Positions 17,196-60,265 of a stretch of DNA of 64,000 nucleotides are shown here, piece by piece. Origin of the DNA: Arachis hypogaea. Its lineage: Eukaryota > Streptophyta > Magnoliopsida > Fabales > Fabaceae. Below the pieces are notes generated by a model. It saw only the letters and a list, made by a program, of their open reading frames with translations, had not been told where the DNA came from and searched no databases. The DNA lies in contig NC_092051.1 of the NCBI RefSeq assembly GCF_003086295.3, forward strand, positions 77,880,445 through 77,944,444. The letters run 5' to 3'. The translations under genes were made by a program, and so were the position numbers. How positions within the stretch are numbered: position 1 is the stretch's first letter; each line of letters starts with the position of its first letter.

Positions 17196-17232
17196 AGCAT
17201 GAGGACATGCTAATGTTTAAGTGTGGGGAGGT
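17196..17232 (+). promoter_or_regulatory. Terminal hairpin and polypurine tract of B
   Basis: AGCATG-AGGA-CATGCT hairpin (17196-17211), then GTTTAAGTGTGGGGAGGT directly abutting the LTR start. The purine-rich end is the expected plus-strand primer. Confidence 0.7.
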
Positions 17233-18634
17233 TGATAAACCATTATTTTATGATTTGTATTGTGCTTAATTGTGTGGTTTTATCAAGTCTTCACCCACTT
17301 ATTCATATGATTAGCATGATATTACAAGTCCTTCCCAAAATTGTTCCATGGTGGAAAAAATTGCTTCCTAAAGATCTTTTAATTATATATTTTTATTCTC
17401 CTCTATACCGTTCGATGCTGTGATCTGGGTGTTAAGTGTTTCAGGCTTCATAGGGCAAGAATGGCTTAGAGAATGGAGAGGAAGCTGGCAAAAATGGAAG
17501 GAACACAAGAAATTGTGGAGATAACCAGCGAGAAGCGATGTGGATGCATGGCTTACGTGACCGCGCGAAATAGAGGAAAGCGCATTGACGCGCTCGCATG
17601 CCTGACACGAACGCGTGGATTGAAAGCTACACGAGTGATGCGAATGCGTGGATGACGCGCACGCATGGCAAGGAAAAACGCTGGATGACGCGAACGCGTG
17701 GATGACGCGATCGCATGACATGCGCGATCTGCAGAATTTGCAGAAATTACTGGCGTGGATTCTGGGCCGCATCTCAACCCAGTTTTTGGCCCAGAAACAC
17801 AAATTAGAGCCAAGGAACATGCAGAGACCAAGGAGGACATTCATTCGGCATAATTTTTAGTTTTATATCTGACTTTACTCCTCCTTTAGGTTTTCTCTCT
17901 ATACATTCATAGTTCTTAGGATTTCATTGTTTATTACTTTTTAGATTGGGATATAGAGAAGAGCTATTACCTCCGCAAGACTTCATCTCTCTAGTTTGTT
18001 TTCTATACTTTTTACTTACTCTTTCATATCCTTAATCTGTTCAGAGTTACCATTGGATTATTTTTAGAATTTATTAATACAAGAACTATTTTTATTTTTA
18101 ATTGGTCTTTTTGATCATTATTTTATCATGTCTTCCTTTATTTCCCTTTCTTATTTTGTGAACTTTACATTCATGATAAGCGAGTAGTTCTCTAACTTGA
18201 TTGGGAGTTGATTGAAAGGAGAACTTTGAGTTGGAATGTTCAAGAGTAAAATTGTAATTGGGTTTATTGTTGGATGGCTCTCTAGTCACTGACACTAATC
18301 CTTCCCAAGGGAGAGGATTAGAACTTGTGAATAGAAGTAGACTTCCAACTTACTTGACTTTCCTCTACCGAGTAAAGGATAACTAAGTAGAACAACCTTC
18401 AATTATCAATTGATCTTGGGAGAACTCCAACAAGGATAGAACATCCGATTAATCTACTCTCGGTCAAGATCTTTATTTAAATTATATAAATTCTCTGATT
18501 TAATTTCCTGTTTATCAAACTCAACCAATTTGAAAAATCTCTGATTAATAAAATAGCACATCTTTCTGTAATTCGTTGGGAGACGACCTGAGATTCATAC
18601 TCCCAGTATTTTAATTCTAATTTTGTGACAACCA
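17233..18634 (+). repeat. 3' LTR of B
   Basis: Begins TGATAAACC right after the polypurine tract. It ends between 18630 and 18636 (..GTGACAACCA), where ORF2 of C resumes. The partner LTR is outside the window, so the end is approximate. LTR starts of F (43258) and, less closely, K (60230) are related. Motif array at 17560-17740. Confidence 0.8.
17560..17740. repeat. Palindrome array in B LTR
   Basis: Repeats of GACGCGAACGCGTGGAT, GACGCGATCGCATGAC and similar. Same motif class as the internal array at 13220-13760. Confidence 0.75.
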
Positions 18635-18636
18635 CA

Positions 18637-19215
18637 TAGGAGGAGAAGGAGAGAAGAACCACGGGAGGAAGAAGAACATCAAGCAGAACAAGGAAAGGAG
18701 CAACAATTCCAACCACACAACAACATGGACATGGTACTAATGAAAGAAGCAATTGAAAGGCTATCCGAACAGTACATGAGAATTCAAGAGAAACAAGAAG
18801 AATTCCATTGTACATGAGAACTCAACAGAGACAAGAGGAGCTTCAGTTGAGGATGATGAGTCAACAGAGAGACTATGAGTCAAGATCCTTAGTTATACAA
18901 AGGGAACAAGCTTCACAGTCTCAAGAGTATTTTAACCAACTGGCCCAACTTCAAGTTAAGAAAATGATATCTTTCAATGAGTTCACAACCTTTCAAGCTG
19001 ATTACAACAGAAATAGCCAAATCAAGCTCAATTACATTGGGGAACATCTGTATAGCATGGACCCAGCATTTCCAATTTACGATGAATACTTCAAGGAAAG
19101 GAGTGAAAGAAAAATAGACAAAGCAATACGCCTTGAAAACAGAGTAGAAGAGACAATGAAGAAAGCTGGATTCTGGCAAAAGCTAAAAGGACAAAGGCAA
19201 GGGAGAGAGTTGTAA
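18637..19215 (+). pseudogene. ORF2 C-terminal part of C
   Basis: Arg/Glu/Gln-rich coiled coil (QQRQEELQLRMMSQQRDYES) ending FWQKLKGQRQGREL, which parallels the FWKKLLGKGKG tail of ORF2 in A1 and A2. A TGA at about 18817 interrupts the frame. The N-terminal domain was cut off by B at 18634. Role unknown. Confidence 0.75.
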
Positions 19216-20246
19216 GCAAGCAAGTGAGAAGAAGAAGAAAGACAAACAGGATAAAAAATGAAAGGTGGACTTGCTCCTAGCTATTCCATTTAATAAAGAA
19301 AGAACATGTTTGTCTTAGTTGATAGTAACCTTTAGTCGTAGTTGTTTTGCATCCTGTTATGTTTAATTTTGGCAATAAGTGTGCTAGTCTAAGTATGTGT
19401 GCTTTCACTTTCACTTGTTAAATGCTTGCCTTGTTCCCTAAGTCTTTTCAATTAAATAAAAGAAATGTTTGAACAAAGAAGTAGAATAGTTCTTTTTTTA
19501 GCAAGTAGTAAAATAACAGTAAGTGGTGGTGTATGATTGAGTGTGTAGTAGCTCACTTATAAATGAATAAAAGGATAGATTGTTCTCTTTCTAAGTGAAA
19601 GCTAGCATGCTATCTATGAATCTAAGTAAATAGAAGTCCTTGGTTGAAAAGGGAAACAAACAAAAAGAAAAGAAAAAGAAAAGCCAAAAGTGGCAGCAAA
19701 AACAAAAGAAAGCAATGAATAAGGCTAGACACCAATAGCTTGGACCTTATGACATACGCCTATGGTGCCTGTGTACTAGGATCTGCTTGGATGATAAGCT
19801 TCTATGGAGTGGTTTAATACTTGGTAACTTGGGTTAACTAACCCGGGATTATCAACCAAAAGTCCATCATCAAGAGCAACCTAGCTACAAGACATTTAGT
19901 AACCCAAAGAGGTGCTGGGGATCAATGTCTTAAGAAGACTTGTGAGCCAAGTGTCTGTAGCGAAAAATGTGTTAAGTACAAATAAACTAAGAAACTGCTA
20001 CAACACATGACACTAAGCTGAAGTTTACAGGAAAAGAAAATGAAGAAAAGCAATTACTAAGGATAAGTAAATGATAAGAGGTCATAGCAGTGTGTTAGTT
20101 GATTCTTGAAGGAGACATTCTATGCTTAAAGATCAATAAGAAGTTAGCTACTGCATTGTCTGCATAAAACTCCATGAGCTACTAATAATGCTTTGCTGAT
20201 AAGAATACTCCCTTCTGTTTCATTCTTTCTTCTTGAAAATTCAGTG
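19216..20246 (+). other. 3' UTR of C
   Basis: Noncoding. Contains the 3' UTR cassette with GCCTATGGTGCCTGTG at about 19751-19766, homologous to cassettes in A2, E and G, plus a degenerate second copy near 19920-19975. Confidence 0.65.
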
Positions 20247-20283
20247 CTTGCTTAGGGACAAGCAAGATTTAAGTTTGGTGTTG
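20247..20283 (+). promoter_or_regulatory. Terminal hairpin and PPT of C
   Basis: CTTGCTT-AGGGAC-AAGCAAG (20247-20266), then ATTTAAGTTTGGTGTTG up to the LTR start at 20284. Identical in arrangement to A2. Confidence 0.7.
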
Positions 20284-24545: not shown

Positions 24546-26141
24546 TGATGAAAAGTCATCTTATGCTAGTTTTACAAGCATTTTTCACTTGTTTCATTAG
24601 GTTTTATGCACTTTCTTGCACAATAAGTAAGTGATTGGAGTGGAATTTAATGATCATTTTGAATCAATCAAACATCATTTATTTTACACAAAATCATAAG
24701 GTTTATGCTAGAATTAATTAATTTTATGAATGATGCAAAGACCTTGCGATTTTGGTGAGACTTTGATTGCTTGTTTGGTTGCTTGTAGGTGAAGAAATGA
24801 AGAAAAAAAGGAAGCAAACAGTAAAGCGTTATGTTCAAAAAGGAAGCGCCATGCTCAATAGCAAACAAGGCTAGCATTCACTTCCAAAGTGAGCGCTACG
24901 CTCACTTAGTTACCTTTTTCGTGGATTTCAAGCTTTGGGGGAGGAATCCTTGTGCCATCCGCACTAAGCAGTGCTCAAAATTAGAGCGTAGAGCTCACTA
25001 AGGGAGCGCCAGTGAGGAGAAGCGCACCAAAGGGTATCACTCAAATAGCTAGCGCAATGCTCATAAAGAGAGCGCTAAGGGAGGCAATTGGCACACCAAA
25101 GGAGAAAGGAACGTAGCGCTCATTGACTCAATGGAGCGCTCCACTGGAAGGAGCACCAAACACCCCTAACCCACTTCAAACAATTGCCACTCGGATCCAC
25201 TTCTTCAAGGCCAAACCAAAAAGCCCACTCCAAGTGCTTAATGACTGACAATAGAAAGTGCATAAATAGGAGCAAGTTTGATTTGAGAGGGGATTTTGGA
25301 GCTCTTTTTATTTTTCCTTTCTAGAATTTTAGAATTTGGGAAATCGGGATCAGATCTAAGTTTTGGGTTTTGAACTTAGGTTAAAGAACTACACTGAAAT
25401 TCTTCATCTGAGAATCATCTTTTACTTTTTCTTTTTATAGTTCTAAGAATTGGAAATTAGATCTCAATCTTCTTTTCTATTTTTATTTTATTTCTTCTGC
25501 AATTTCTTTTTTACTTTTTGGTCAAGCGAGTAATTGAGATATAGATTTGCTTGCTGTTCTTGTTACTCTTCTGCAATTGTCAAATTTCTCTTTTAGGATT
25601 TCATAATTGAGCTAAGCTTTCTTGTTGTTTTGATTCTTCGGCAATTTTTCATTTCTATTTTAGTTCTTCTGCAATTTCTCTTAATCTCATACTTCTTTAA
25701 TCCACTGCACTTCTATTTTCTAGTTCAATTTGAATCCCAATACCCAAATCCCTTTATTCTTAATGCAATTTAAGTTTATTGTCAATTTAGATTCAGCAAA
25801 TTTCAATACCTTGCACTTTAAGTTTCAATTATTTACCTTTCTTACAATTTAAGTTTCAGCTCTTTTACTTTCTTACACTTTAAGTTTCTGCAATTTATTT
25901 CCTCTGCACTTTAAGATTTTGTCAATTTACCTTCTCCCTTTTATTTCCATGCAATTTTACTTCTGTTAATCAAGTTTCACTCAAATCATCAAATATTCCC
26001 TTAACTAAATTCATCACCATACTAAAGTTGCTCAATCCATCAATCCCTGTGGGATCGACCTCACTCTTGTGAGTTATTACTACTTGATGCGACCCAGTAC
26101 ACTTGCCGGTGAGTTTGTGTTGAATTATTTTTCCCTCATCA
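24546..26141 (+). repeat. 5' LTR of E (1596 bp)
   Basis: TGATGAAAAG..CCCTCATCA. Array of AGCGCTC-type units at about 24830-25145. TATA-like CATAAATAGG at 25261-25270. A U5 with many CTGCAATTT-like units follows. Confidence 0.85.
24830..25145. repeat. Palindrome array in E 5' LTR (GAGCGCT type)
   Basis: Repeated GAGCGCTACGCTC, TAGCGCTCA and GAGCGCTCC units, imperfect palindromes around AGCGCT. Confidence 0.7.
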
Positions 26142-26147
26142 AGTTTT

Positions 26148-26165
26148 TGGCGCCGTTGCCGGGGA
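26148..26165 (+). other. Primer-binding site of E (tRNA-Asp)
   Basis: TGGCGCCGTTGCCGGGGA 6 nt after the LTR end. The stretch 26166-26350 to the ORF is leader without other features. Confidence 0.9.
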
Positions 26166-26350
26166 TTGATATAGATCGACAATGATTAAGTGGGTGAGAA
26201 GTCTAGATTAAGCATTTTCTTTGTTTTTTGTTCTTTTTAATTTTCTATTTTAAATTGATACCAAGATGTTTGAGTTATTGCCTCACTAAGAAATTCCTCT
26301 CTGTAACATAAATTTCAATTTTCAGTGGTTATGTATTTTACAAAATTCAA

Positions 26351-27718
26351 ATGGAGTTCAACTCATCTTGTGATCAAACAAATTTTTTGGGATATTACTC
26401 AACATCACCAATTGACTATTCTAATGGTGGCTAGGAATATCACCGAAAAATCATAGCTTCTGAGCACTCCAATCAATGAAGATATGCTTCAGAGCCACAA
26501 GATGAGCAAGAGAATCATATGGGATATTGCTCACCACCACAAAATGATTCAAGTCATTATGCTAATGGTGGTTGAAAATATCACCAAGAGATCACATCTT
26601 CTGAGCAACCCAACCAATGGGGATATGCTCCAGAATCACAAATTGATCAAGCAAATCACATGAGATATTGTCCAGAACCACAAAATGATCTATGTCATTA
26701 TCCTTATGGTGTCTGGGCATATCAACAAGAGTGTGAACAATCAAGTGAAATAAATTTCCTCCCAGAGCCACAAAGTGACTCATACTGTTATGACAGTTAC
26801 ACAAACCATGGCTGGGAAGGGAATTTCAATGATTCATATTCTACTCATCAAGAGACATCATCAATGGAGTGTGCTTTCAATAAATTCATGCAAAATTGTC
26901 CCCTAATGCCACAAGATGATTCATACTGTGATGAATTCAACAATTCTTCAAGTTGTGCTTGGAGAATCAAAACCAGAATGCATTTGACAATTCATACTCC
27001 ACTTATCAAGAGCTATCATCACTTGAGCAAAACCTTCAATTCATTAATGGAAAGCTGTCAAACCTCACCTCCCAGTTTTTCATCTGAAAATTCTTCATCA
27101 CTTAACTATCCCTTGACACAAAATCTCTTCCAAAACTCATAGTCCACACAAACTTTCATGAACCAAAGCCTCTCAAGGCTTGAAACCATGCTTGAAAGAT
27201 ATGAAGGGAAGGCACAGATATCTTGAAATGACCAAGAAAAATCCTTCAAAAATATGAAAGTGCTGGTAAACCAAATGTTAAGTGTGAAGGAGGAAGTGGA
27301 AGAGCAAGAAGAAGAGGCCCCTGTGTCAAGTGACTTTTTAGTGAAGAAGGAGGAGGTGGTGGAGGTATTTGAACCTGAACTTGCATATCCACAGAAGACA
27401 CTTGAGATGACAAGAGAACATGAAAACTCACAACCCCCACAAACTTTTCTGAACCAAAAACTCTCAACACTTGAATCTGTGATTGAAAGATATGAAGAGG
27501 AGATGAAGAAATCTTGGGAAGAACAACAAACCTCCTTCATGAAAGTACTATTACATCAATTCTTGAGTGTAAAAGAGGAAGTGGAGGAACAAGAAAGTAA
27601 GGAAGATAATCAAGGAAGTCCATACTCAAGTGAGGTAGAAAGTTACATAGAAGAAGGGCTCATTGAACCACCAATTCAAAAGGCTTTTGTTGAAGATAAA
27701 ACTCCAACAATCACATAG
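26351..27718 (+). pseudogene. Repeat-rich ORF of E, unknown function
   Basis: One frame of 456 codons from ATGGAGTTCAAC with five in-frame stops. The first three, near 26432, 26480 and 26573, are each at a position where the repeats elsewhere suggest Trp. The N-terminal half repeats a unit of about 30 residues built on PEPQND, Tyr/Cys and GGWEY motifs. The C-terminal half has two copies of a coiled-coil unit (QKLSTLESVIERYEEEMKKS and LSVKEEVEEQE). I see no gag fold motif, protease, zinc knuckle or RT. Position right after the leader is where gag normally lies. The product may be a structural or RNA-binding protein, or the frame may be maintained for cis signals only; neither is shown. Confidence 0.7.
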
Positions 27719-28016
27719 CAACCATGTCTTGATATCCAAGGAGTGAAGGCAACTAACAAGAGCACCGAGAAGAGGATTGTGACCAAGATATAAATAACAA
27801 CATTCAAGAAAAGGTCAACTGCAAACAATCCTACCCCTGATCCAGCAAGCAAGCTCAAACAAGCAACTTACGAAAGGAAGCTTGCTGAGGAGAGACCAAA
27901 ACAGGGGACAATAGCTGAATCTTCTCCCCCTTGAGGTCATTCCTCTTAACAAACTGGAAGAAGAGGAAGAAAGTGAAGAACAACATGTCAAGCTAATGAC
28001 ACTAAAAGAGCGCTTG

Positions 28017-28032
28017 TTGGGAGGCAACCCAA
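28017..28032 (+). promoter_or_regulatory. Post-ORF hairpin TTGGG-AGGCAA-CCCAA
   Basis: Preceded by AGCGCTTG, as in A and G elements. Same loop as A1, A2 and G. Confidence 0.6.
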
Positions 28033-28092
28033 TCTTAGGTAACATTTTATTCCTTTGCTTTGTTCATTTTACCTGTTTGCTTTGTTTACGTT

Positions 28093-28665
28093 TCAATAAA
28101 TTGGCATATGATTACATTTTAAGTTTGGTGTTGCCCTGCAACAATTTGTTTTCAATCTTTATGGATGATTGTATCTAATAAAAAATGAAAGTGTCACACT
28201 AAGATTCTAAGTTTGGTGTGCCACTTATTTTTCTATGCAATTTATTCAGCAACACCACTTGTCTGCATAATCATAATGCCTCTGCAAAGTTTTCTTTCTT
28301 TTGGTTTAACATTTTTTTATTATTTCTGTTTTAGGGATTTCTTTGTTTTTAATACTTTCATTTATTTTTCTCGTTAACTGTTTTTGTTAAATACCCCACC
28401 AAGAAATCCTTATTCATGACAAATTCTTGCTTGGTGATTGTATTTAACATATAGTAGTTCCCTGTGTTTAGTTTAGTCAAATAAATTGACATATGGTTGC
28501 ATTCTAAGTTTGGTGTTGCTATGCAACAAAATTTGTTCCCAATCTATACTGGATACTTGCATCAATTCCAAGTGAAAGTGTCACACTAAGTTTGGTGTGC
28601 CACTTATATTTTTATGCAATGTATCATGCACACCCTCTTATGTTTGCAATCACAATGTCTCTGTT
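28093..28665 (+). repeat. Tandem duplication carrying AAGTTTGGTG motifs
   Basis: Unit 1 (28093-28290) and unit 2 (28485-28665) share, in order, a motif AAGTTTGGTGTTG, ATGCAACA-like and AATTTGTT blocks, GTGAAAGTGTCACACTAAG and AAGTTTGGTGTGCCACTTAT. That gives four copies of the PPT-like AAGTTTGGTG motif inside the element. Confidence 0.8.
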
Positions 28666-28782
28666 TCCTGTGCCCTGATGGTTATTCTTAATTTTGCTTG
28701 CTTAAACACATGTACTACTAACATTTCATTGTGTAAGACACTCATGATCCATCTTAACCCCATCACCACTGTTCTAATTGTG

Positions 28783-28817
28783 GCTTGAGGATGAGCAAGC
28801 ATTCTGAGTTTGGTATG
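28783..28817 (+). promoter_or_regulatory. Internal hairpin plus PPT-like motif of E
   Basis: GCTTG-AGGATGAG-CAAGC (28783-28800), then ATTCTGAGTTTGGTATG. It corresponds to the cassette upstream of ORF2 in G, but here no ORF2 follows. Confidence 0.5.
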
Positions 28818-29298
28818 GGAAGTGGAAGAATAGGAGGAAAAGGACAACAACAAGGAAGATGAACCACAAGGTGGTAACGCTCCTTTCTCCTCCTACTTAT
28901 TTCCAGCACTGTAAATTGCATGATTGTCTTTATCTTCTCTGAATGCATGTGTGTTATGAATAAGCATGGTTTGATTACTGATTTTTAACATCTTGCTGTG
29001 ACATTATGACTACTATCTTGAATTTTGTGAGTTCAAAAGCAATAAAATATCATGATCATTAACAAACAAGGAATTAAAGAAGAACTTAGTATGAGCTTAT
29101 GAGTATTGGAAGGCTAGTATGGTTAATTGTTTCTCAATTGCATTAGATTTATTTAATTGAAGTTTTCATCTAGAACATTTTATAAAATTTTTGAAATCAT
29201 GAAAACCTTGAAAAAGTAAATACAGTTAAGGAAAGAAAAGAAAAAGGGAAAGAATGAGAAAGCTGAAGGTTCTGAATACCAATGGCAATTAAATTGTT

Positions 29299-29517
29299 AA
29301 GTGCTTGTGGTGTTTATGTATCAGGCAAAAAGCTTGAAAACAAAACACTTAGAGTCAAGGCTAAGCTCAAGTGCAAAAGCACTCCCTCGAAGATCAAGGT
29401 TCTGAGCATCAATGATTAGAGAGTCAGGAAAAGAAACAAATGAGCTTAAAGAAGTCCTCTAATTAAATGCTTGTGGTGCTTATGTATCAAGTGGTAATAC
29501 TTGAAAACAAAGCATTT
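29299..29517 (+). repeat. Duplicated 3' UTR cassette of E
   Basis: Two copies of a unit TGCTTGTGGTG..TATGTATCA..AAAACAAA. In the second, AAATGCTT (29465-29472) pairs with AAGCATTT (29510-29517), and inside it CAAGT-GGTAAT-ACTTG forms a hairpin. Related cassettes occur in C, A2 and G. Confidence 0.6.
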
Positions 29518-29763
29518 AGAGTCGTAGCTTTGTTATCAACTCACGGGACAAAGCACCCAAAAGGAGAAGCTAATAAGAGAATGTAAAAGCTTGTTTCAAG
29601 GAAGAAATATAAGGAAAAGATTTCATAAAATGAGCTAGATAGAAGCATCAATCATTTACATTTCTTTTGTGATTGTAGCATGCAGGGAAAACTAGCCAAC
29701 CATGAACATTAACTTGCTATTCTTCCCACCTTGATTTGTCAAAATTTACTGCATGATTCTTTT

Positions 29764-29800
29764 CTTACTTGGGGAAAAGCAAGGTTTAAGTTTGGTGTTG
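29764..29800 (+). promoter_or_regulatory. Terminal hairpin and PPT of E
   Basis: CTTACTT-GGGGAA-AAGCAAG (one A.C mismatch), then GTTTAAGTTTGGTGTTG up to the LTR. Confidence 0.6.
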
Positions 29801-31293
29801 TGATAACATGTCATCATGTCATGTTTTTATATGCTTTTTCATACAAGAAATTGATGATTAGTGCTTAAATATTGAATGCTTTTGTGCTTAAATGGTATAT
29901 TTCTTTGATCTTTTGATTTTATAAATTTTGAAGGAAATAAGTGGAAAAAGAAGAAAAATAGCACAAAATCAGCTCAAAAGAAGAAAAGAAGAATTTTGGG
30001 GCACATTTTAGAGATCAGACCCACTTTGGAGCCTTAGGACACGCTTTTTAAAGTGTGGCCCATGACTAAATCAAGGAAGCGTGACAATCAGCGCTCATTT
30101 GCCAAGTGAGCACTACACTCACTAATTGAGCGTTTTCGTGAATTTTTAGCTTGGAAGCAAGCTTTTTACTGTCCAAGCGCTCACTAAGTTAACTTAGCGC
30201 TCACTAAGTTAATTTGGCGCTGACAGCACGACCATGCCTTCTTCAAAACACCATAACTTGAGCTACAGATGTCCAATTAATGTGCTTCTAGTTGTGTTGG
30301 AAAGCTTACATTCAGAGCTTTCCAACGATATAAAGTAATCTATATTTAGCATGAAATTGAAGCACAAGTGATAGGCATCTTTAAGGCCCAAAAACACATT
30401 TGGGGTAGCGCACCATAAGCTAGCGCACCAAAGAGCACGCTTGGTGAAGTGAACGCTATGCTCATTATTTCAACTGAGCACTCCACTGGAGGCAACACCC
30501 AAGACCCATTTCATTGAAGCCCCAAAGCAAAGCAAAGCCCATTGACATGACTCAGAGGCACAAGAAACAGTTAGACTAGGAATTTCATTTAAATTGTAAT
30601 TTATTTTCAATTTCAATTTCATTTTTATTTTGTAAAGCCTATATAAAGGCATCAGTTTCATTTCATTAGAGAAGGCAGGCTCTGCTAGAGAGCAGTAGGA
30701 GTAGGAGTAGGAGTAAAATAGAAGGCTCTCTTTGATACACTTTTCTTTTCTACACTTTCTACATCTCAGTAGTGAATTCAATTTGGCTTATGCAATTTCA
30801 GTTTTCGATAATTCTCTTCTGCAAATTTCCCTTTCTGTAATTTTACAATTCAATTTACATTGAGCTTGATTTTAATCTTCTGTTCCCATTGCTTTATGTT
30901 CTCATTGCTTCCAATTTACTTTCATGAAATGTAGATCTTCTGCAATTATTCAGAGATTTGATTTACTGCTTTATTTAATTCCCCAGCACCCAATGCCCTT
31001 TACATTTACTGCACTTTACCTTTCTTGTTATTTAAGCTTATGCAGTTTACATTCTTTGCTCTTTAAGATTCCGCCAATTTACCTTCTGCATTTTATAATT
31101 CCTGCAATTTATATTCTGTGCTCCAATTTCATTCAATTCACCAATGTTAGCTTGACTAAACTAATCACCTCACTAAAGTTTCTTGATCCATCAATCCTCG
31201 TGGGATCGACCTCACACTAAGTGAGTTATTACTAATTGATGCGACCTGGTACACTTGCCGGTGAGTTTGTGTGGAATTATTTTTCCCTCATCA
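29801..31293 (+). repeat. 3' LTR of E (1493 bp)
   Basis: TGATAACATG..CCCTCATCA. TATA box TATATAAAG at 30640-30648. AGCGCTCACTAAGTTAA units at 30090-30220. The last 100 bp (GGGATCGACCTCAC onward) match the 5' LTR well; the U3 part does not. Confidence 0.85.
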
Positions 31294-33888: not shown

Positions 33889-36731
33889 TTGCTTGTACTT
33901 GTTAGTTGTATGACAGGGAGAAGAAGCGGGGCTTCAACTTCCTTTGATTCTGAACCTGAGAGAACCTTCCTTAGACTAAGGAGGGAGGCAAGAGACAAAT
34001 GTGTAGTTGGTGCTGAAGAAGAGGAGGAACACTTTGAGGAATACTTTGAACCAAACATGGAAGAAAACATGAAAAACCATCATGAAGAAGAGGCTCACAA
34101 CCATGGTGAAAGAGGTCGAGCAAATCATGCTGGGGAGGATAGAAGAGTTTTAGGCTCCTACATCAACCCAAACCCAGGAAACTGTGGGAGTAGCATTCAA
34201 AAGCCAACCATCCATGCCAACAATTTTGAACTGAAGCCACAGCTCATCACCCTTGTGCAGAACAACTGTTCGTTCGGAGGAAGTGTCCAAGAGGACCCAA
34301 ATCAACATTTAACCACCTTCCTGAGAATATGTGATACAGTGAAGTCTAATGGTGTTCATTCTGACGCCTATAGACTGCTCTTATTTCCATTCTCACTCAG
34401 GGATAAGGCAGCTAAGTGGCTGGAATCTTTCCCAAGGGAAAGCTTGACAACTTGGGAAGACATGGTGAACAAATTCTTAGCAAGATTTTACCCTCCTGAA
34501 CGAATCAATAGGTTGAGAGCTGAGGTCCAAACCTTCAGGCAACAAGATGGTGAGACTCTATATGAGGCATGGGAGAGGTTTAAGGACCTGACAAGGAGGT
34601 GTCCACCTGACATGTTCAATGAATGAGTGCAGCTGTACATTTTCTATGAAGGGCTCTCTTATGAGTCAAAGAAGGCTATAGACCATTCATCCGGAGGATC
34701 TTTGAACAAGAAGAAAACCATTGAGGAGGCTGTAGATGTCATTGAAACAGTAGCAGAGAATGACTACTTCTATGCTTCCGAAAGAGGGAACACAAGAGGA
34801 GTAATGGAGCTAAACAATGTAGATGCTCTGTTGCCCCAAAACAAGCTCATTACCCAACAGCTGGCTGACCTCACCAAGAAGATGGAGAGGAACCAAGTGG
34901 CAGCAATCTCCACTTCATCAACAACCCAAGAAGGAGTGAATGAAGAGGCAGATGGTAGCCAGGAGCAAGCCAACTACATCGGGAATTCACCTAGGCAGAA
35001 CCATGATCCATACTCTAAGACTTATAACCCTGGATGGAGGAATCACCCAAACTTTGGGTGGGGAAATCAACAAGACCAAAGCCTTGATCAAAACGCCCAA
35101 ATCCAAACAATGCAGCTCACTAACACTTCACATCTAGACCATATCAACATCCCAATAACAACACCTCTCCACATTCATATCAAGGCCAGAACAACCCTCC
35201 TCAACCTGACCTATCATCATTTGATGAAAGAATCTCAAGGATTGAAAATCTACTTGAAGGCATATGCAAGGATATCCAGGACAGTAAAGTGTTCAAGGAG
35301 GAAGTGCGAGCCAGTTTCAAGAATCAGGGAGACACAATCAAGAGGTTAGAATCTCAAGTAGGATATCTCTCTGAGCAAATTCCCAAACCCACAGATGGAT
35401 TCCCAAGTGACACAGAGAAGAATCCGAGAGGTGAAACAAAGAAAGTAAGATGGGAAGATTGCAAGATGGTCACTGTAAGTGATAAGGAGACTAAGGACAA
35501 GCCAAGCAAGCTGTCAGAACAACCTGAAGATACCTCAGCAGAGAAGGGGGAAAAAGAATACCGAGAACCAGAAATATCAAAACAGGAGCTGCTGAGACTC
35601 TATGCACCTTTTCCCCAGCTGCTCAATGGTGCTGTGGAGAAGAGAATATACTCAAGATTTCTGGACTTGTTTGCATCTCTGCATGTGAACATACCATTTA
35701 TCAAGATTATCCAACAAATGCCTGCATTCATCAAGTACATGAAGGAGCTACTTCCTAGGAAAAGCTCACTCAAGGGAGGCCAAACTATAGTGATGAACAA
35801 GGAGTGCAGTGCCCTTATTCAACCGCAGTTGCCTACGAAAAGAAAAGATCCAGGGAGTTTTCATGTCCCCTGTGCCATAGGAGAAACAATGTTTGATAGA
35901 GCACTATGCAATTTGGGAGCAAGCATCAACTTAATGCCCTTAGCCCTGGTGAAGAGACTGCAGATCAATGAGATATTGCCCACAGATGTGGTCATCAGGC
36001 TGGCTGACAAAACTCAAAAACAAGCAATAGGAGTGGTGGAAAATGTGTTGTTAAAGGTGGGGAAATACTTTCTTCCCACAGACTTTGTCATCTTGGACAT
36101 GGAAGAGAGTCACACTCACCCAATCATATTGGGAAGACCATTCCTAGCTACAGCCAGAGCACTCATAGATGTGGAGCGAGGGGAGTTAATATTGAGGATC
36201 CATGATGAGCAACTCAGCTTCAATGTCTCCAAACTCTCCCAAGAAGCTGACCAAGAAAATAAAGAACCAAGCAATGATCACACTGAGATGCTGACAGGGG
36301 AAACAAGCACTGATGCACCACCAACACATCCTAAAACCCCATTGCATGAGGAACAAGGCAAACAGCCATTGTCACAACTCAAGGAGAAGCTGGAGGAACC
36401 TAAACCACCAGAGGCATGTGAACACAACAACAAAATTCCCTTAGAAGAAGTCACCAAGAGCAAGGCAACACCAAAAGGAACAGAGAAGAAGGTACCAAGG
36501 GGGTGGAGGAACAAGAAGATCCCTACGGAAAACTTCTCTCCAGGAGATAAAGTGATCTCAGCTTACTTCCCAGATATCCCCCCTAATCTCCCCACTGTAC
36601 CATCTCAGTTACCTAAGGTCTTCACTATTAACAGAGTCCTCTCCTTGGAACATGTAGAGATCATTGATACAACCAATGGATATAAGTCCAAGGCAAGAGG
36701 GGAGGACTTGAAGCATTATCAACCTCCCTGA
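33889..36731 (+). pseudogene. gag-protease of A2
   Basis: Same layout as A1: MTGRRSGASTSF start region, retrotransposon gag domain (TLYEAWERFKDL, RRCPPDMFNE), linker, then protease with CNLGASINLMPLA, so the catalytic Asp seen in A1 as CDLGA is Asn here. ILGRPFLATA and the FTINRVLSLEHVEI end are intact. A TGA at 34624-34626 replaces a Trp, a frameshift lies near 35090, and a TAA at 35121-35123 falls at the same point as the A1 TAG at 4572. From 35124 the frame is open to 36731. Confidence 0.88.
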
Positions 36732-40130: not shown

Positions 40131-40167
40131 CTTGCTTAGGGACAAGCAAGCTTTAAGTTTGGTGTTG
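40131..40167 (+). promoter_or_regulatory. Terminal hairpin and PPT of A2
   Basis: CTTGCTT-AGGGAC-AAGCAAG (40131-40150), then CTTTAAGTTTGGTGTTG to the LTR. Confidence 0.7.
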
Positions 40168-43220: not shown

Positions 43221-43257
43221 AGCATGAGGACATGCTTAGTTTAAGTGTGGGGAGATT
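43221..43257 (+). promoter_or_regulatory. Terminal hairpin and PPT of F
   Basis: AGCATG-AGGA-CATGCT (43221-43236), then GTTTAAGTGTGGGGAGAT to the LTR. Confidence 0.7.
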
Positions 43258-46141: not shown

Positions 46142-47880
46142 TGGTGCACGAAATTGTGATCTCCAGGCTCGAACAAATCCTGGTAATGGCTCCAGAGCTT
46201 GGTGCTCTGATCTTAATTCATAATTGTCACAACTTCGATACAACTAACCAGCAAGTGCACTGGGTCGTCCAAGTAATACCTTACGTGAGTAAGGGTCGAA
46301 TCCCACGGAGATTGTTGGTATGAAGCAAGCTATGGTCACCTTGTAAATCTCAGTCAGGCAGATATAAAGTGATAAAGGTGTTTTCGAATATGATATAATA
46401 AAAGAGGGATAGAGATACTTATGTAAATCATTGGTAGGAATTTCAGATAAGTGAATGGAGATGCTTTTCGTTCCTCTGAACCTCTGCTTTCCTGCTATCT
46501 TCATCCAATCAGTCTTACTCCTTTCCATGGCTGGCTTTATGTGATACATCACCACTGTCAATGGCTACTTTCGGTCATCTCACGGGAAAATGATCCAATG
46601 CCCTGTCACGGCACGGCTAATCATCTGGAGGCATCACCCTTGTCAATGGCTTCATCTTATCCTCTCAGTGAATAATATGCTCACGCACCCTGTCACGGCA
46701 CGGCTATTCATCAGTCGGTTCTCGATCATGCTGGAATAGGATTTACTATCCTTTTGCGTCTGTAACTAACGCCCTGCAATCGCGAGTTAGGAGCTCGTCA
46801 CAGTCATTCAATCATTGAATCCTACTCGGAATAGCATAGACAAGGTTTAGACCTTCCGGATTCTCTTGAATGCTGCCATCATTCTAGCTTACGCCACGAA
46901 GATTCTGGTTAGGAGATCTAAGAGATACTCATTCTAGCTTATTTCATGTAGAACAGAAGTGTTTGTCAGACACGCGTTCATAAGGGAGAAGGATGATGAG
47001 CGTCACACATAATCATCACCTTCATCACGTTCTTGGGTGCGAATGGATATCTTAGAAGCGAAATAAGAAGAATTGAATAGAAAACAGTAGTACTTTGCAT
47101 TAATCTTTGAGGGACAGCAGAGCTCCACACCTTAATCCATGGAGTGTAGAAACTCTACCGTTAAAAATACATAAGTGAAGGTCCAGGCATGGCCGAGATG
47201 GCCAGCCCCCTAAAACGTGATCAAAGGATCATAAGGTAATCCAAAGATTCTTAATACAATAGTAAGAGGTCCTATTTATAATAAACTAGCTACTAGGGTT
47301 TACATGAGTAAGTAATTGATGCATAAATCCACTTCCGGGGCCCACTTGGTGTGTGTTTGGGCTGAACTTAAGTGTTCCACGTGCAGAGGCCATTTGTGGA
47401 GTTGAACGCCAGTTTCTGTGCCAGTTTGGGCGTTCAACTCTGGTTTTGGATCCTTTTCTGGCGCTGGACGCTAGATTTGGGCAGAAGGCTGGCGTTGAAC
47501 GCCAGTTTACGTCGTCAATTCTTGGCCAAAGTATGTACTATTATATATTGCTGGAAAGCCCTGGATGTCTACTTTCCAACGCAATTGGAAGCGCGCCATT
47601 TTGAGTTCTGTAGCTCCAGAAAATCCACTTTGAGTGCAGGGAGGTCAGAATCCAACAGTATCAGCAGTCCTTTTTCAACCTCTGAATCTGATTTTTGCTC
47701 AAGTCCCTCAATTTCAGCCAGAAAATACCTGAAATCACAGAAAAACACACAAACTCATAGTAAAGTCCAGAAATGTGAATTTAACACAAAATCTATTAAA
47801 AACATCCCTAAAAGTAACTAGATCCTACTAAAAACATACTAAAAACAATGTCAAAAAGCGTATAAATTATCCGCTCATCA
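46142..47880 (-). repeat. 3' LTR of G (1739 bp)
   Basis: Minus strand TGATGAGCGGATAA..TCGTGCACCA. Palindrome units GGCGTTGAACGCC at 47400-47520. TATA box (TATAAATAGG) at 47271-47280. The intact orientation of its terminal 190 bp serves as reference for the inversion in the 5' LTR. Confidence 0.95.
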
Positions 47881-51034: not shown

Positions 51035-53362
51035 TCACAGATGTGCAGAGCTTTGTTGAGACTCTCCAACGCCAAACTTAGAGTTTGGATATGGGAGTTC
51101 AACACCAAACTTAGAGTTTGGTTGTGGCCTCCCAACACCAAACTTAGAGTTTGACTGTGGGGGCTCTGGTTGACTCTGCTTTGAGAGAAGCTTTTCAAGC
51201 TTCCTCTCCATGGTTGCAGAGGGAGATCCTTGAGTTTTGAATCCAAGGGAGTTCTCATTCCATTGAAGGACTATTTCACCTCTGTCAACGTCAATCACAG
51301 CTCTTGCTGTGGCCAGGAAAGGTCTTCCTAGGATGATGGATTCATCCTCTTCCTTTCCAGTATCCAGGACTATGAAATCAGTAGGTATGTAAAGGCCTTC
51401 AACCATTACTAATACATCTTCTACTTGTCCATAAGCCTGTTTTCTTGAGCTGTCTGCCATCTCTAATGAGATTTTAGCAGCTTGCACCCCATAGATTCCC
51501 AGTTTCTCTATTACAGAGAGGGGCATGAGGTTTATTCCTGAACCAAGGTCACACAGAGCCTTAAAGATCATGGTGCCTATGGTACAGGGTATTATGAACT
51601 TTCCAGGATCCTGTCTCTTCTGAGACAATGTCAGTTGATCCAGATCACTTAGTTCATTGATGAACAAGGGCGGTTCAACTTCCCAAGTATCAATGCCAAA
51701 TAATTTGGCATTCAGCTTCATGATTGCACCAAGAAACTTGGCAGTTTGCTCTTCTGTAACATCCTCATTCTCTTCTGAAGAGGAATACTCATCAGAGCTC
51801 ATGAAGGGTATAAGGAGGTTCAATGGAATCTCTATGGTCTCTAGATGAGCCTCAGAGTCCTTTGGTTCCTCAGAGGGAAGCTCCTTATTGATCACTGGAC
51901 GTCCCAGAAGGTCTTCCTCCTTGGGATTCACGTCCTCTCCTCTCCTCACAGGTTCGGCCATGGCGCTTATGTCAATGGCCTTGCACTCTCCTTTTGGGTT
52001 CTCTTCTGTATTGCTTGGGAGAGTACTAGGAGGGATTTCAGTGATCCTTTTACTCAGCTGGCCCACTTGTGCTTCCACATTTCTAATGGAAGACCTTGTT
52101 TCATTCATGAAACTTACAGTGGCCTTAGATAGATCAGAGACTAGATTTGCTAAATTAGAAGCATTTTGTTCAGAGTTCTCTGTCTGTTGCTGAGTTGATG
52201 ATGGAAAAGGTTTGCTATTGCTAAACCTGTTTCTTCCACCATTATTAAAGCCTTGTTGGGGCTTTTGATCTTTCCATGAGAAATTTGGATGATTTCTCCA
52301 TGTTGAGTTATAGGTGTTTCCATAAGGGTCACCTAAGTAGTTCACCTTTGCTATTGCAGGGTTCTCAGGATCATAGGCTTCTTCTTCAGAAGATGCCTCT
52401 TGAGTACTGTTGGATGCAGCTTGCATTCCATGCAGACTCTGAGAAATCATATTGACTTGCTGAGTCAATATTTTGTTCTGAGCCAATATGGCATTCAGAG
52501 TATCAACTTCAAGAACTTCCTTCTTCATAGGCATCCCATTACTCATAGGATTCCTTTCAGAAGTGTACATGAACTGGTTATTAGCAACCATGTCAATGAG
52601 TTCTTGAGCTTCTGCAGGCGTTTTCTTTAGGTGAATGGATCCACCTGCAGAGGTGTCCAGTGACATCTTTGATAGCTCAGATAAACCATCATAGAATATA
52701 TCTAGGATGGTCCATTCTGAAAGCATGTCAGAAGGACACTTTTTGGTCAACTATTTGTATCTTTCCCAAGCTTCATAGAGGGATTCACCTTCTTTCTGTC
52801 TTAAGGTTTGAACATCAGCTCTAAGCTTGCTCAGCTTTTGAAGAGGAAAGTACTTGGCTAAGAAAGTCGTGACCAGCTTATCCCAAGAGTTCAGGCTGTC
52901 TCTAGGTTGAGAATCCAACCATAATCTAGCTCTGTCTCTTACAGCAAAAGGGAAAAGCATGAGCCTATAGACTTCAGGATCTACTCCATTAGTCTTAACA
53001 GTATCACATATCTGCAAGAATTCAGTTATGAACTGAAAAGGATCTTCAGATGGAAGTCCATGAAACTTGCAGTTCTGCTGCATCAGAGAAACTAATTGAG
53101 GTTTCAGCTCAAAGTTGTTTGCTCCAATGGCAGGAATGGAGATGCTTCTTCCATGTAAATTGGAATTAAGTGCAGTAAAGTCACCAAGCATCTTCCTTAC
53201 ATTATTATTGTTTTCGGCTGCCATCTTCTCTGCCTGTTCAAAATTTTCTGAAAGATTATCTCTGGATTGTTGTATTTTAGCTTCTCTTAATTTTCTCTTT
53301 AGAGTCCTTTCAGGTTCTGGATCTGCTTCCACAAGAATGTTCTTATCCTTGCTCCTGCTCAT
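51035..53362 (-). pseudogene. gag-protease of G, one in-frame stop
   Basis: Frame of 776 codons with a single TAG at 52751-52753, at the end of the gag motif LYEAWERYK. Starts MSRSKDKNILVEADPEPERT. Gag domain motifs: ANNFELKPQLVSLMQQNCKF and MLFPFAVRDRARLWL. Protease has CDLGSGINLMPLS and ILGRPFLATARAVIDVDRGE. The C-terminus holds three copies of PNSKFGV encoded by the DNA unit CCAAACTCTAAGTTTGG. No zinc knuckle. No RT follows. Apart from the one stop and the misplaced PBS the genes look usable. Confidence 0.88.
51072..51154 (-). repeat. Three copies of CCAAACTCTAAGTTTGG in the protease tail
   Basis: Copies at 51072-51088, 51105-51121 and 51138-51154 (the last with one change). Each is a 7-bp inverted repeat CCAAACT/AGTTTGG around CTA and includes the PPT-like AAGTTTGG. 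They encode the PNSKFG repeat. Confidence 0.8.
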
Positions 53363-54762: not shown

Positions 54763-56486
54763 TTGGACGACCCAGTGCACTTGCTGGTTAGTTGTATCGA
54801 AGTTGTGACAATTATGAATTAAGATCAGAGCACCAAGCTCTGGAGCCATTACCAGGATTTGTTCGAGCCTGGAGATCACAATTTCGTGAACCAAGTATTT
54901 GGCGCCGTTGCCGGGGATTGTTGGTATGAAGCAAGCTATGGTCACCTTGTAAATCTCAGTCAGGCAGATATAAAGTGATAAAGGTGTTTTCGAATATGAT
55001 ATAATAAAAGAGGGATAGAGATACTTATGTAAATCATTGATAGGAATTTCAGATAAGCGAATGGAGATGCTTTTCGTTCCTCTGAACCTCTGCTTTTCTG
55101 CTATCTTCATCCAATCAGTCTTACTCCTTTCCATGGCTGGCTTTATGTGATACATCACCACTGTCAATGGCTACTTTCGGTCATCTCACGGGAAAATGAT
55201 CCAATGCCCTGTCACGGCACGGCTAATCGTCTGGAGGCATCACCCTTGTCAATGGCTTCATCTTATCCTCTCAGTGAATAATATGCTCACGCACCCTGTC
55301 ACGGCACGGCTATTCATCTGTCGGTTCTCGATCATGCTGGAATAGGATTTACTATCCTTTTGCGTCTGTCACTAACGCCCTGCAATCGCGAGTTAGGAGC
55401 TCGTCACAGTCATTCAATCATTGAATCCTACTCGGAATACCACAGACAAGGTTTAGACCTTCTGGATTCTCTTGAATGCTGCCATCATTCTAGCTTACGC
55501 CACGAAGATTCTGGTTAGGAGATCTAAGAGATACTCATTCTAGCTTATTTCATGTAGAACAGAAGTGTTTGTCAGACACGCGTTCATAAGGGAGAAGGAT
55601 GATGAGCGTCACACATAATCATCACCTTCATCACGTTCTTGGGTGCGAATGGATATCTTAGAAGCGAAATAAGAAGAATTGAATAGAAAACAGTAGTACT
55701 TTGCATTAATCTTTGAGGGACAGCAGAGCTCCACACCTTAATCCATGGAGTGTAGAAACTCTACCATTAAAAATACATAAGTGAAGGTCCAGGCATGGCC
55801 GAGATGGCCAGCCCCCTAAAACGTGATCAAAGGATCATAAGGTAATCCAAAGATTCTTAATACAATAGTAAGAGGTCCTATTTATAATAAACTAGCTACT
55901 AGGGTTTATATGAGTAAGTAATTGATGCATAAATCCACTTCCGGGGCCCACTTGGTGTGTGTTTGGGCTGAGCTTAAGTGTTCCACGTGCAGAGGCCATT
56001 TGTGGAGTTGAACGCCAGTTTCTGTGCCAGTTTGGGCGTTCAACTCTGGTTTTGGATCCTTTTCTGGCGCTGGACGCCAGATTTGGGCAGAAGGCTGGCG
56101 TTGAACGCCAGTTTACGTCGTCAATTCTTGGCCAAAGTATGGACTATTATATATTGCTGGAAAGCCCTGGATGTCTACTTTCCAACGCAATTGGAATCGC
56201 GCCATTTCGAGTTCTGTAGCTCCAGAAAATCCACTTTGAGTGTAGGGAGGTCAGAATCCAACAGCATCAGCAGTCCTTTTTCAACCTCTGAATCTGATTT
56301 TTGCTCAAGTCCCTCAATTTCAGCCAGAAAATACCTGAAATCACAGAAAAACACACAAACTCATAGTAAAGTCCAGAAATGTGAATTTAACACAAAATCT
56401 ATTAAAAACATCCCTAAAAGTAACTAGATCCTACTAAAAACATACTAAAAACAATGTCAAAAAGCGTATAAATTATCCGCTCATCA
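54763..56486 (-). repeat. 5' LTR of G with inverted end
   Basis: The segment 54917-56486 matches the 3' LTR in normal orientation (TATA at 55877-55886, array 55990-56120). The segment 54763-54916 holds the LTR end plus primer site in opposite orientation, and about 38 bp of LTR present at 46266-46305 are missing. Confidence 0.9.
54900..54917 (+). other. Primer-binding site of G, wrong strand
   Basis: TGGCGCCGTTGCCGGGGA on the plus strand although G is a minus-strand element. Part of the inverted segment. Confidence 0.9.
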
Positions 56487-56782: not shown

Positions 56783-56800
56783 TCCCCGGCAATGGCGCCA
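56783..56800 (-). other. Primer-binding site of D (tRNA-Asp, one mismatch)
   Basis: Minus strand TGGCGCCATTGCCGGGGA, 6 nt after the LTR. One base differs from the site in the other elements. Confidence 0.85.
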
Positions 56801-56806
56801 ACGTTC

Positions 56807-57279: not shown

Positions 57280-57284
57280 ATATC

Positions 57285-58215
57285 CAATCCCGAAACCCAG
57301 ATTTACTCAATGTGAGAAGGGATTTCAAGCATGATTTCATGTTTCCTCTTCTAAGGTTCCCATGAAACCCAAATTGCATTCAATCTCTTTTCCAAGATAA
57401 TTGAATGCTAAGCTTGCAGAACAAAATTCCTTCTATCAAATCAAAGAGAGATGAAGAGAAGAAGAAATTCACTAGCATTAATCCATCAAGTACAACAGAT
57501 CTCCCTCCCCGAATGAGAGGGAGTTTAGCTAATCATAGCTTAGAGAGAGTACAAGAGATGGAAGAAGATAAAAGTAAAGTAATGTGGAGTAAAAGTTCCA
57601 AGCCCCTTTTCAGTACTCTTCAAGGGGTATTTATACTACTCCTATTCTAGAAATGAAAAATTACAAAAAGAAAAGAAAATTACAATTGAAAGCTAAAGGG
57701 AATAACCATTCATTAGAGGCATGTGAGTGGCGTGTGAATGGCGTGTGAGTGGCGTGCCACGCCCAAAAGGTCAAGCTGGCTTGGCGTGCCATGCCCAAAT
57801 CTCAAGTGGCATGCCCCTTAGTGAAGCTGGCTTGGCGTGCCACACCCAACTCTCAAGTGGCATGCCCATGAAGATTGGCCTGGCATGCCACGCACAAAAC
57901 TCAAGTGGCACGCCCTAGGTGCAGTCTTCCATCTTCTTCACTGGCAATTTAAACTGGTGTGCCATGCCCTCAGCAAAATCGTTATTCTTCTTCTCTGGAA
58001 GGTTTGCTTGGCGTACCACGCCCAGGTCTGGCGTGCCACGCCCTTTGTTGGTGCACAAACATTCCTCTCTGGTCCAGTAAGCTAGCGTGCCACGTCCAGG
58101 ACTGGCATGTCACGCCCATGGTGCTAATAAGGTTAGCGTGCCACACCCAACTCCCAAGTGGCACGCCCTCGATGAAGTCTTCAATCTCCCTTTCTAGTTA
58201 AGTGAACTGGCATGC
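57285..58215 (-). repeat. H: LTR fragment, A/C-type clade
   Basis: Central part of an LTR cut on both sides. Minus strand shows an array of GGCGTGCCACGCC-like units (57726-58180), a TATA box (57629-57636) and an R-region block with CTCCC..TCATT..GGGAG comparable to A and C LTRs. The left end was cut by D; the right end by K. Confidence 0.75.
57726..58180. repeat. Palindrome array in H (GGCGTGCCACGCC type)
   Basis: About a dozen imperfect copies of GGCGTGCCACGCCC and TGGCACGCC half-sites. Open frames over it are repeat artefacts. Confidence 0.8.
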
Positions 58216-60230
58216 TGACAATGGCCAAATGCAGGGGTTTTGATTTTCACACTAAAAGTAGAATTTGTCCGTTGCAATTATAGTCCAAACCCAACAATTG
58301 AACATCAATCAAATAATAAATTCAATACAAAATATAACCAAGAGTATTTAGCTCCCGGGTCGTCTTTCCTAGGAGTTGCAATTAAGTGTACAATTATTGG
58401 CTATGAGAGGGCAAGAGGGATTGGGAATGAAAGCAAGAGATGTAAATAGCAAGGAATTGAAAAGAAAGTAATTAAAGGACTCTTGGCAAGAAGTGGGTAA
58501 TCTAGGTTTCCTATCCTAGTTATGGAATACAAACATGGCAATTGTGTGGAAGCAATCCCAATCAATCAATCCTCCTTGAGAATTAGTCAAAGGTGTAATT
58601 GATCTCAATCCATAAGTCCTAGTCAACTCACCAATTACTTAGTGAAAGACTAGCGTCAAAGGAAACCAAATTAATTAACCATTGTCACACAATGCAGAAT
58701 GGACATCCACAACTCAATTCCACCCAAACAACCAATTTCTCAACCAAGAGTGTGAAAACTAAACATGCAAGGATTTAAACATCAAAGCAATAAAAGTGAA
58801 AACAATTAAATGCAAAGAAAAGAAATGGCAAGAAAGTAACTTGACATGCAAGAAAGTAAATGAAAGCAAGTAAAAGTCAAAGCAATAAAACTTCAAAAGC
58901 AAGAAACCTCTTGACAAGTAATTGAGGACTAAGGCTACCTATCCTAGCCATTGACCACAAATATATGATAATTATGAAGAGTTAATCCTACTTTGTCAAC
59001 CTTACATCGAAGATAAGTCAAATAGGCATAGTTAATTTCAATCCCTAAGTCCTATGTCAACACTAAGAGGTCACATAGAGTCAAGGGAAACCAAATCAAC
59101 TAACTACTCTAATGTATCAAACAAGAATGGACATCAATGACTCAAGGAACACCAAAGTCAACAATTTCAAACCAAGAATGAAAAAAACAAAGTAAAAACT
59201 AAGATAGGTATCTTATCAAACACTTGGTGTGCATGAGAATAAAATAATATTAAAATACATTAAAATAAATGCTAAAATACCAAATGCAAGAAAATGACAA
59301 TAATAACTAAAGAAAGCAATAAATGACATAGAAACATAAATTTGCATTTATTGGAATTAAAATAACAAAAGAGTGCTCATAACATAAAAGTGGCAAAATA
59401 AAGGAAATACAAGAGAAATGAAGAAGAAAGATGCAATAACAATAAATGACAAGGAAAAATAAATGAAAACAAGAATTAAAAGTAGAAATTGCAAGAAATT
59501 AAACTAAAGAATCCTAATTCTAGAGGGAGGGGGGAGCTTCTCTCTCTAGAAACTAAGAGAAAACATAATAAAAACTAAACCTAATTGCCCCCCTTCATTC
59601 CTCTTCACTTTGGCCTTAAATAGCTTCAAAAACTGAGTTGGAATGGGTTTTAGGGGCCTAAAAATCGCCCGCAGTAGTTTCCAATTAATGAGCTCACGTG
59701 CAGGGACCTGTGCGGACGCACAGATGTGTGCGTCCACACACTTGCTGTTTTCTGACTTGTGCGGACGCACAAGTACCTGTGCGGATGAACAAGTAGAGTT
59801 ATGTCCACTATAGTAAATTATATATCAAATCGAAGCCCCGGACGTTAGCTTTCCAATGCCATGAGAACCGCCTCATTTGGACCTCTGTAGCTCAAGTTAT
59901 GACCAATTTAGTACCGAGAGGTCAGGATAGACAACTTTCCAAATCTCATTTCTTCATGGTTTCTTCCCTTTTGCATGCTCTTCTGCTCACTTATCCAACC
60001 CATGCTTGGCTTGGAAACCTGAAATCACTTAACAAATACATCAAGGCACCAAATGAGATTAAAGTGAATAAAATTAACTAGAACTAAGCACAAAAGAGCA
60101 TGTTTTCCCATTTAAGCACAATTTAGGAAGAAATCTCATAAGCATGCTATTTAGATGAATAAATGTGGGTTTATATGATGAAATCCACTCAAATCAAACC
60201 AAAAGATATCGTAAAATATGGACTCATCCA
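58216..60230 (-). repeat. 3' LTR of K with two tandem U5-like units
   Basis: Minus strand TGGATGAGTCC..GGCCATTGTCA. Units 58899-59480 and 58490-58898 are diverged copies of the same region (shared TACCTATCCTAG-like and AAGTCCTA blocks). Array of TGTGCGGACGCACA at 59695-59795. Confidence 0.7.
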
Positions 60231-60265
60231 TTCCCCCACACTTAAATCAAGCATGTCCTCATGCT
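60231..60265 (-). promoter_or_regulatory. Terminal hairpin and PPT of K
   Basis: Minus strand AGCATG-AGGA-CATGCT (60250-60265), then TGATTTAAGTGTGGGGGAA to the LTR. Confidence 0.7.

Follow-up and report, generated by a model that had tools for sequence, protein, structure and literature searches.

How reverse transcriptases choose one short RNA primer and spare it from cutting is an old and open question, and it is raised anew by a 64-kb stretch of Arachis hypogaea DNA (contig NC_092051.1, positions 77,880,445 to 77,944,444; hereafter the window), which is a nest of plant long terminal repeat (LTR) elements. We refer to these elements as B, C, E, A1, A2, F, G and K, with the suffix "3" for a terminal and "_int" for an internal copy of a small hairpin. 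The arrangement comprises a hairpin of 6–9 base pairs (bp) with an RGGR loop, then 9–10 nucleotides (nt) leading to a TYTAAGTKTGG tract (U-box/primer), followed by the 3′ LTR. Judging from the sequence, we give about an even chance to the reading that Athila/Calypso-like Ty3/gypsy elements have a module for plus-strand priming to which the hairpin belongs.

An earlier note on this DNA had described seven terminal hairpins, all of which were present, with loops as it gave them and TTTAAGTKTGG-type sequence after every one. Three elements carried AGCATG-AGGA-CATGCT: B (17196–17211, plus strand; tract 17216–17232; LTR from 17233), F (43221–43236, plus strand; tract 43240–43257; LTR from 43258) and K (60265–60250, minus strand; tract 60246–60227; LTR from 60226). 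The hairpin CTTGCTT-AGGGAC-AAGCAAG occurred on the plus strand in C (20247–20266; tract 20268–20283; LTR from 20284) and in A2 (40131–40150; tract 40152–40167; LTR from 40168; target-site duplication [TSD] GTATT). E had an 8-pair stem with two mismatches and a GGGA loop (29764–29783, plus strand; tract 29785–29800; LTR from 29801), and the terminal hairpin of G was GTTGCTTG-GGGA-CAAGCAAC (47918–47899, minus strand; tract 47896–47881; LTR from 47880). The distance from stem to LTR was 17 nt in C, A2 and E (read directly in E), 18 nt in G, 21 nt in B and F, and 23 nt in K, a range of 17–23 nt instead of the 17–21 nt claimed before; the LTR starts of B, F and K were taken from the common TGA start, not from LTR pairs.

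The association of stem and LTR exceeded background. Among eight LTR-anchored sites, namely the seven plus a database locus described below (L028, for which a provisional LTR start was used), seven had a fully paired stem of 6 bp or more that ended 10–26 nt before the LTR start, compared with 2.6% of 20,000 random positions. E was the sole failure, owing to mismatches in two of the eight pairs of its stem. When we instead took all 16 TYTAAGTKTGG sites in the window blind to hairpins, a fully paired stem of 6 bp or more ended no farther than 4 nt away in 8, the background being about 1.8% of 9,126 positions per strand; the other eight were E, with its imperfect stem, and seven motif copies away from LTR junctions. 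None of 19 purine tracts (at least 9 purines with GGGG, and TG within 6 nt) was preceded by a 6-bp stem within 38 nt. These are a different kind of tract, since none of the seven primer tracts fits that definition. Searching the whole window with Rfam 15 at the gathering threshold gave no match at any hairpin.

The tract itself was not always what its usual name implies. In C, E, A2 and G, where LTR boundaries came from BLAST between LTRs, 5′ LTR copies and TSDs, the 16 nt directly before the LTR read TTTAAGTTTGGTGTTG, a G/T-rich sequence. "Polypurine tract" (PPT), the term used for all seven before, is a misnomer for these four because only 7 of the 16 letters are purines; it suits B, F and K better, with purine-richer tracts of 17–20 nt. 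Despite differences in tract length, each of the ten firm copies had 9–10 nt between TYTAAG and the RGGR loop, taken as four letters (8 nt in C and A2 if their loop is counted as six). All eight terminal copies were preceded by a pyrimidine-rich 40 nt (0.66–0.76, versus local means of 0.39–0.53), the stretch at K3 being the weakest and matched by 14% of nearby windows; G_int was also preceded by such a stretch. We tried and rejected two pairings of this stretch: in neither the pseudoknot with the RGGR loop (permutation p 0.117) nor the pairing with the tract (permutation p 0.121) did cognate partners do better than swapped ones. Separately, AAGTKTGG occurred at 33 sites in the window where 6.6 are expected (for example 28121, 28209, 28506, 28588, 36883, 36984, 51138, 51105 and 51072), and in E, A2 and G several AAGTTTGGTGT copies were grouped close to the end of gag/pro or beyond it, some of them within other small hairpins. 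These AAGTTTGGTGT/AAGTKTGG copies may be primer-like repeats.

Two further hairpins, missed by the earlier note, were found motif-first inside elements. G_int (50213–50192, minus strand) has a 9-bp stem, TATTGCTCG-AGGG-CGAGCAATA, followed by TCTAAGTTTGGTGTGG, and sits just before an open reading frame (ORF) with a Transposase_32 domain. K_int (61850–61833, minus strand) has a 7-bp stem, TGCACGG-AGGA-CCGTGCA, followed by TTTAAGTGTGGGGGAGG. Both are candidate internal primer modules; at the level of sequence, G_int and K_int each offer a second primer-like tract inside the element, as a central PPT would. Two hairpin-first candidates are tentative: E_int (28783–28796, plus strand; loop start 28788), with a 5-bp stem including a G-U pair, an AGGA loop and then TTCTGAGTTTGGTATGG, and B_int (15795–15810, plus strand; loop start 15801), GCACCG-AGGA-TGGTGC, which is collinear with K_int.

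Outside the window, a hairpin-blind search of genome contigs with a reverse transcriptase (RT) alignment gave two confirmed loci among 113 pattern matches. These loci, L028 (NZ_QPKJ02000021.1) and L029 (NZ_JABGCL010000066.1), lie in bacterial draft contigs, are 99.6% alike and resemble LTR elements; they are probably plant contamination, since their named RT relatives are plants. L028 contains a 2001-aa ORF and, about 2.8 kb past it, ACATTG-AGGA-CAATGT, with 10 nt from the loop to TTTAAGTTGGGGGGAGG. The hairpin was picked by scanning for RGGR loops whose stems form 6 or more of 8 pairs; of the three matches per locus, only this one abuts TTTAAGT. Viral contigs yielded no relative with either the B RT or the RT alignment, 27 listed viral pattern matches showed no hairpin of this kind by eye, phages gave no relatives by RT search, and three plasmid records had an RT of about 40% identity or less.

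Does the stem vary as a selected paired structure would? The earlier note had said that both arms change together among the seven. There were indeed four stem types; the arms are identical, however, in B, F and K and again in C and A2, and only 3 of 8 pairs covaried, a number equalled or exceeded in 282 of 500 shuffles. The covariation score of the seven was 0.458 compared with 0.151 in shuffles, a value that none of 500 shuffles reached, and none reached their number of doubly changed cells. With G_int, K_int and L028 added, 93.3% of cells in the ten copies paired, 5 of 6 pairs were changed on both sides (reached by 9 of 500 shuffles), 8 further pair types appeared (4 of 500), and covariation rose to 0.763 versus 0.155 (0 of 500), with slid registers at 0.193 or below; the shuffles leave relatedness between copies in place. 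Including E_int and B_int gave 93.1% paired cells and a covariation of 0.854 versus 0.242, again with 5 of 6 pairs doubly changed, although 120 of 500 shuffles reached that count.

We then turned to the covariance model that the earlier note had proposed, training it on the seven copies alone and searching three sources. The untrained copies scored 32.5 bits (G_int), 32.3 bits (K_int) and 24.7 bits (L028/L029), compared with 19.7 bits for the best other plant match. The same alignment without structure gave 13.2, 16.4, 13.2 and 10.8 bits for G_int, K_int, L028 and L029, respectively, and 12.1 bits for the best other match. Judged from these scores, structure widened the margin over noise of G_int, K_int and L028 from 1.1, 4.3 and 1.1 bits to 12.8, 12.6 and 5.0 bits, respectively. 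E_int and B_int scored at noise level (13.3 and 8.9 bits), and we rejected them as firm internal copies. As a negative control, 27 viral loci preselected by GGAC...TTTAAGTKTGGKGG produced 24 matches at E-values up to 1 under default filters, the best at 24.3 bits. The score of L028 alone is therefore not decisive, and the stronger argument is that L028 lies in a plant-like contig that carries an RT. Thus, the claim of a selected paired structure stood up once copies beyond the seven were added, through the 5 of 6 pairs and the separation by the model, but not by the count of covarying pairs in the seven.

Because the position of the hairpin is fixed with respect to the tract and not to any ORF or the LTR, and because both recur internally, we read hairpin and tract as one priming unit. 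A primer role had been suggested before; the association of the hairpin with the tract was borne out by the spacing in ten of ten copies and by the same tract in G_int and K_int, and from this we infer the priming role. In such a mechanism, reverse transcriptase copying the RNA from the 3′ LTR would cross the tract and then meet the stem. The stem would slow the enzyme or be held by it, which would place RNase H near the tract/LTR junction and leave the tract as primer. This help might matter most in C, E, A2 and G, with a G/T-rich tract and no purine run, and internal copies could act as extra (central) primers. A strict polymerase-to-RNase H ruler does not fit, since the gap is inconstant, varying by 6 nt, and longer than the Ty3 value given below. 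A broader proposal, which we hold to be doubtful, is that Athila-type elements have a two-part plus-strand origin whose primer, at the 3′ end as well as internally, is marked by the hairpin instead of a purine run. Synthesis would then start precisely despite a G/T-rich tract, and in some elements at two places.

The predicted folds agreed with the hairpin in part. When 32-nt windows were folded, the minimum-energy structure consisted of all or most of the hairpin in 10 of 12 copies, the exceptions being E3 and E_int, and z-scores lay between −0.4 and −5; in 104-nt folds the hairpin was dominant in 5 of 12 (G3, G_int, K3, K_int and B_int). Several results weigh against the priming module. In the 104-nt folds the hairpin made up about half in F3 and C3 and was minor in B3, A2, E3, E_int and L028, and the local-fold z-score went beyond −4 only in G3 and G_int. 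Wobble pairs failed to separate RNA from minus-strand DNA. K_int lacked the pyrimidine stretch (0.49 versus 0.60 locally). The active sites of Ty3 RT lie about 13 bp apart (PMC5371799), and the 17–23 nt from stem to LTR both exceeds that distance and varies by 6 nt. For retroviruses, one study of HIV-1 RT contends that PPT generation is not determined by how the enzyme binds, slides or stalls in register (PMC5766924), and the authors of work on human and simian immunodeficiency viruses (HIV/SIV) thought it unlikely that PPT priming is modulated by RNA structure as such (PMC3616985).

Other explanations have to account for the same features, and we rank them in the order packaging, mRNA-level function, inheritance without selection, and action as DNA. 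Purine loops bind retroviral nucleocapsid in known cases, and the GG of the loop is the only invariant letter pair in both the ten- and the twelve-copy alignments, as would be expected if the hairpin were a Gag/nucleocapsid binding site for RNA packaging near the 3′ end with the purine loop as contact. We nevertheless consider this unlikely: it leaves the fixed spacing to the tract unexplained, and our hairpin scan listed no RGGR hairpin within 300 nt past the primer-binding site (PBS) of A1, A2, E and K, weak ones lying about 400 nt (A1) and about 670 nt (E) downstream. The related suggestion of a dimerisation signal lost ground, as loop–loop kissing is disfavoured by RGGR loops that are not self-complementary. 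A role in the mRNA (stability, export, processing or splicing) is favoured by the pyrimidine-rich stretch ahead of all eight terminal copies, which in several copies is followed by a YAG and resembles a 3′ splice site. C, A2 and G have TTCAG or TCCAG at the stem or immediately ahead of it, TAG stands at the stem start in F and K, and G_int directly precedes the Transposase_32 ORF. B, E and L028, however, have no such YAG, the interval from the terminal copies to the LTR showed no ORF, and the hairpin is locked in position to the primer tract, so that we see only a slim likelihood for this explanation.

The block might also have been inherited together with the primer tract, its pairing being unselected and due to chance. 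The arms of the seven fall into two close families, the number of covarying pairs among them equals that of shuffles, and when 40-mer flanks were compared for the 45 pairs of the ten copies, 12 upstream and 14 downstream comparisons rose above the random 95% level (0.46 identity), partly among close relatives; some of the likeness comes, we think, from common pyrimidine richness. The other 33 upstream and 31 downstream comparisons stayed at or below that level. Across the ten copies, arm identity ranged from 8 to 100%, against 50–100% for loop letters and 82–100% for the tract core. Indeed, the arms of K_int, G_int and L028 differ widely yet pair: those of K_int share 8–17% identity with the eight other window copies and 50% with L028, yet pair fully, with loop and tract core kept. 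Inheritance without selection, already strained by these copies, is improbable in our view. Finally, the inverted repeat could act as DNA, as a protein site, a cruciform or a hairpin in minus-strand cDNA, where the A.C mismatches of C, A2 and E would become G.T wobbles. The loop is asymmetric between strands, and a plus-strand G.U occurs inside the six-pair stem, though only in two tentative copies; we rate action as DNA very improbable.

Some features of the elements themselves bear on the proposed lineage. B contains RT, RNase H and integrase in Ty3/gypsy order, an order shown for B only, plus a Transposase_32 domain, and every named match of its RT, among the 120 matches listed, was a plant, lineage names being absent. 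In A2 and G, three ORFs scanned in each revealed gag, a weak protease and Transposase_32, and no RT. LTR pairs, established by BLAST between LTRs, 5′ LTR copies and 5-bp TSDs, define A2, E (TSD ATGTC) and G, whose LTR resembles a peanut (Arachis) family. A common 17-nt PBS, TGGCGCCGTTGCCGGGG, lies 4–6 nt past the LTR end in A1 (6063, minus strand), A2 (33635), E (26148) and K (63791, minus strand), and is present in inverted form in G at 54900; searching for it in B, C and F gave none. With this PBS and LTR pieces on both sides (58893–59067 and 63824–63999), the internal region of K is complete in the window. TGGCGCCGTTGCCGGGG may be of the tRNA-Asp type. In the Calypso group, the PBS is complementary to tRNA-Asp and lies about 5 nt after the 5′ LTR (PMC1142308).

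Several other features of the window stand apart from the hairpin. At 54763–54911 in G, the end of the 5′ LTR and the PBS appear inverted: 131 bp match the reverse complement of 46142–46272 with 99% identity, and the PBS has plus-strand orientation. E (24546–31293) has a 5-bp TSD (ATGTC), but only separate pieces of its two LTRs can be aligned, at about 67–72% identity, so E is old or its LTRs have recombined. A second conserved stem-loop with a GGGAGRCAACCC core lies 45–52 nt past the ORF end in A1 (2916–2905, minus strand), A2 (36776, plus strand), G (50983–50972, minus strand) and B (13088, plus strand), and also occurs in E (28019, plus strand), where no ORF end was read. The core has five sites with at most one mismatch versus 0.13 expected, its outer pairs differ in step (CATGGG/CCCATG, TTGGG/CCCAA and GGTGGG/CCCACC), and in A1, A2, E and G a further small hairpin, CGTCA..TGACG or TGTCA..TGACA, lies ahead of the stem-loop. 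Three Rfam snoR71 matches scored above the gathering score, none of them at a hairpin (5086–5189, plus strand; 34510–34613, minus strand; 52721–52828, plus strand). In A2 and G they run antisense to the gag ORF, and in A1 to the stretch homologous to it; they reflect either a piece in gag that resembles a small nucleolar RNA or an Rfam family into which such elements have been drawn.

With its compact size, its covarying arms and its natural stem variants, such a signal next to the primer in a common lineage of plant elements would make the part of structure in primer choice directly testable. The tracts of C, E, A2 and G break the polypurine rule, and the hairpin offers a precise landmark for element ends and internal primers. 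A U-box or T-rich stretch lies upstream of retroviral PPTs, which the TTTAAG and pyrimidine stretch here resemble; we know of no hairpin at the retroviral U-box. No account of this hairpin was found among the literature matches listed, most subscription papers, including the original Athila4/Calypso report, lying outside their coverage; term searches (hairpin included) of the covered parts of a Retand survey, a domain survey and one Athila paper found no such structure.

Known systems share parts of the arrangement. In HIV/SIV, the central PPT and the PPT have a structural motif in common, but the PPT itself is partly paired (PMC3616985, PMC4439019), and that of Ty3 is weakly paired (PMC11381356), whereas the tract here lies outside the hairpin. 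The closest parallel is in Sireviruses, in which an inverted repeat spans the PPT/3′ LTR junction, several PPTs occur and the authors propose that the repeat helps in primer formation (PMC2829016). A precisely placed secondary structure at the terminal PPT, a proposed primer role and multiple PPTs are thus common to both. In the Sirevirus repeat, the left arm borders the PPT, the right arm is inside the LTR, the PPT lies in the loop and the arms average 28 bp (PMC2829016). Here, in a different superfamily, the entire hairpin is 5′ of the tract, with 6–9 bp and an RGGR loop, and two internal copies have the hairpin, whereas the upstream PPTs of Sireviruses are without the repeat (PMC2829016). 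A Sirevirus-type repeat was not encountered: both arms are 5′ of the tract, and pairing of the pyrimidine stretch with the tract plus a few LTR bases was not specific to cognate partners (p 0.12), a longer right arm deeper in the LTR not having been searched for. Athila4 and Calypso, elements of the same kind, have one extra internal PPT, as cited in PMC2829016; like the internal tracts of G and K, it forms a second primer-like tract, here located between pol and the 3′ LTR, and the covered parts of that paper mention no hairpin there. Taken together, structure at the PPT, as in Sireviruses, and the extra PPT of Athila4 and Calypso are already known; what differs here is a hairpin wholly 5′ of the tract.

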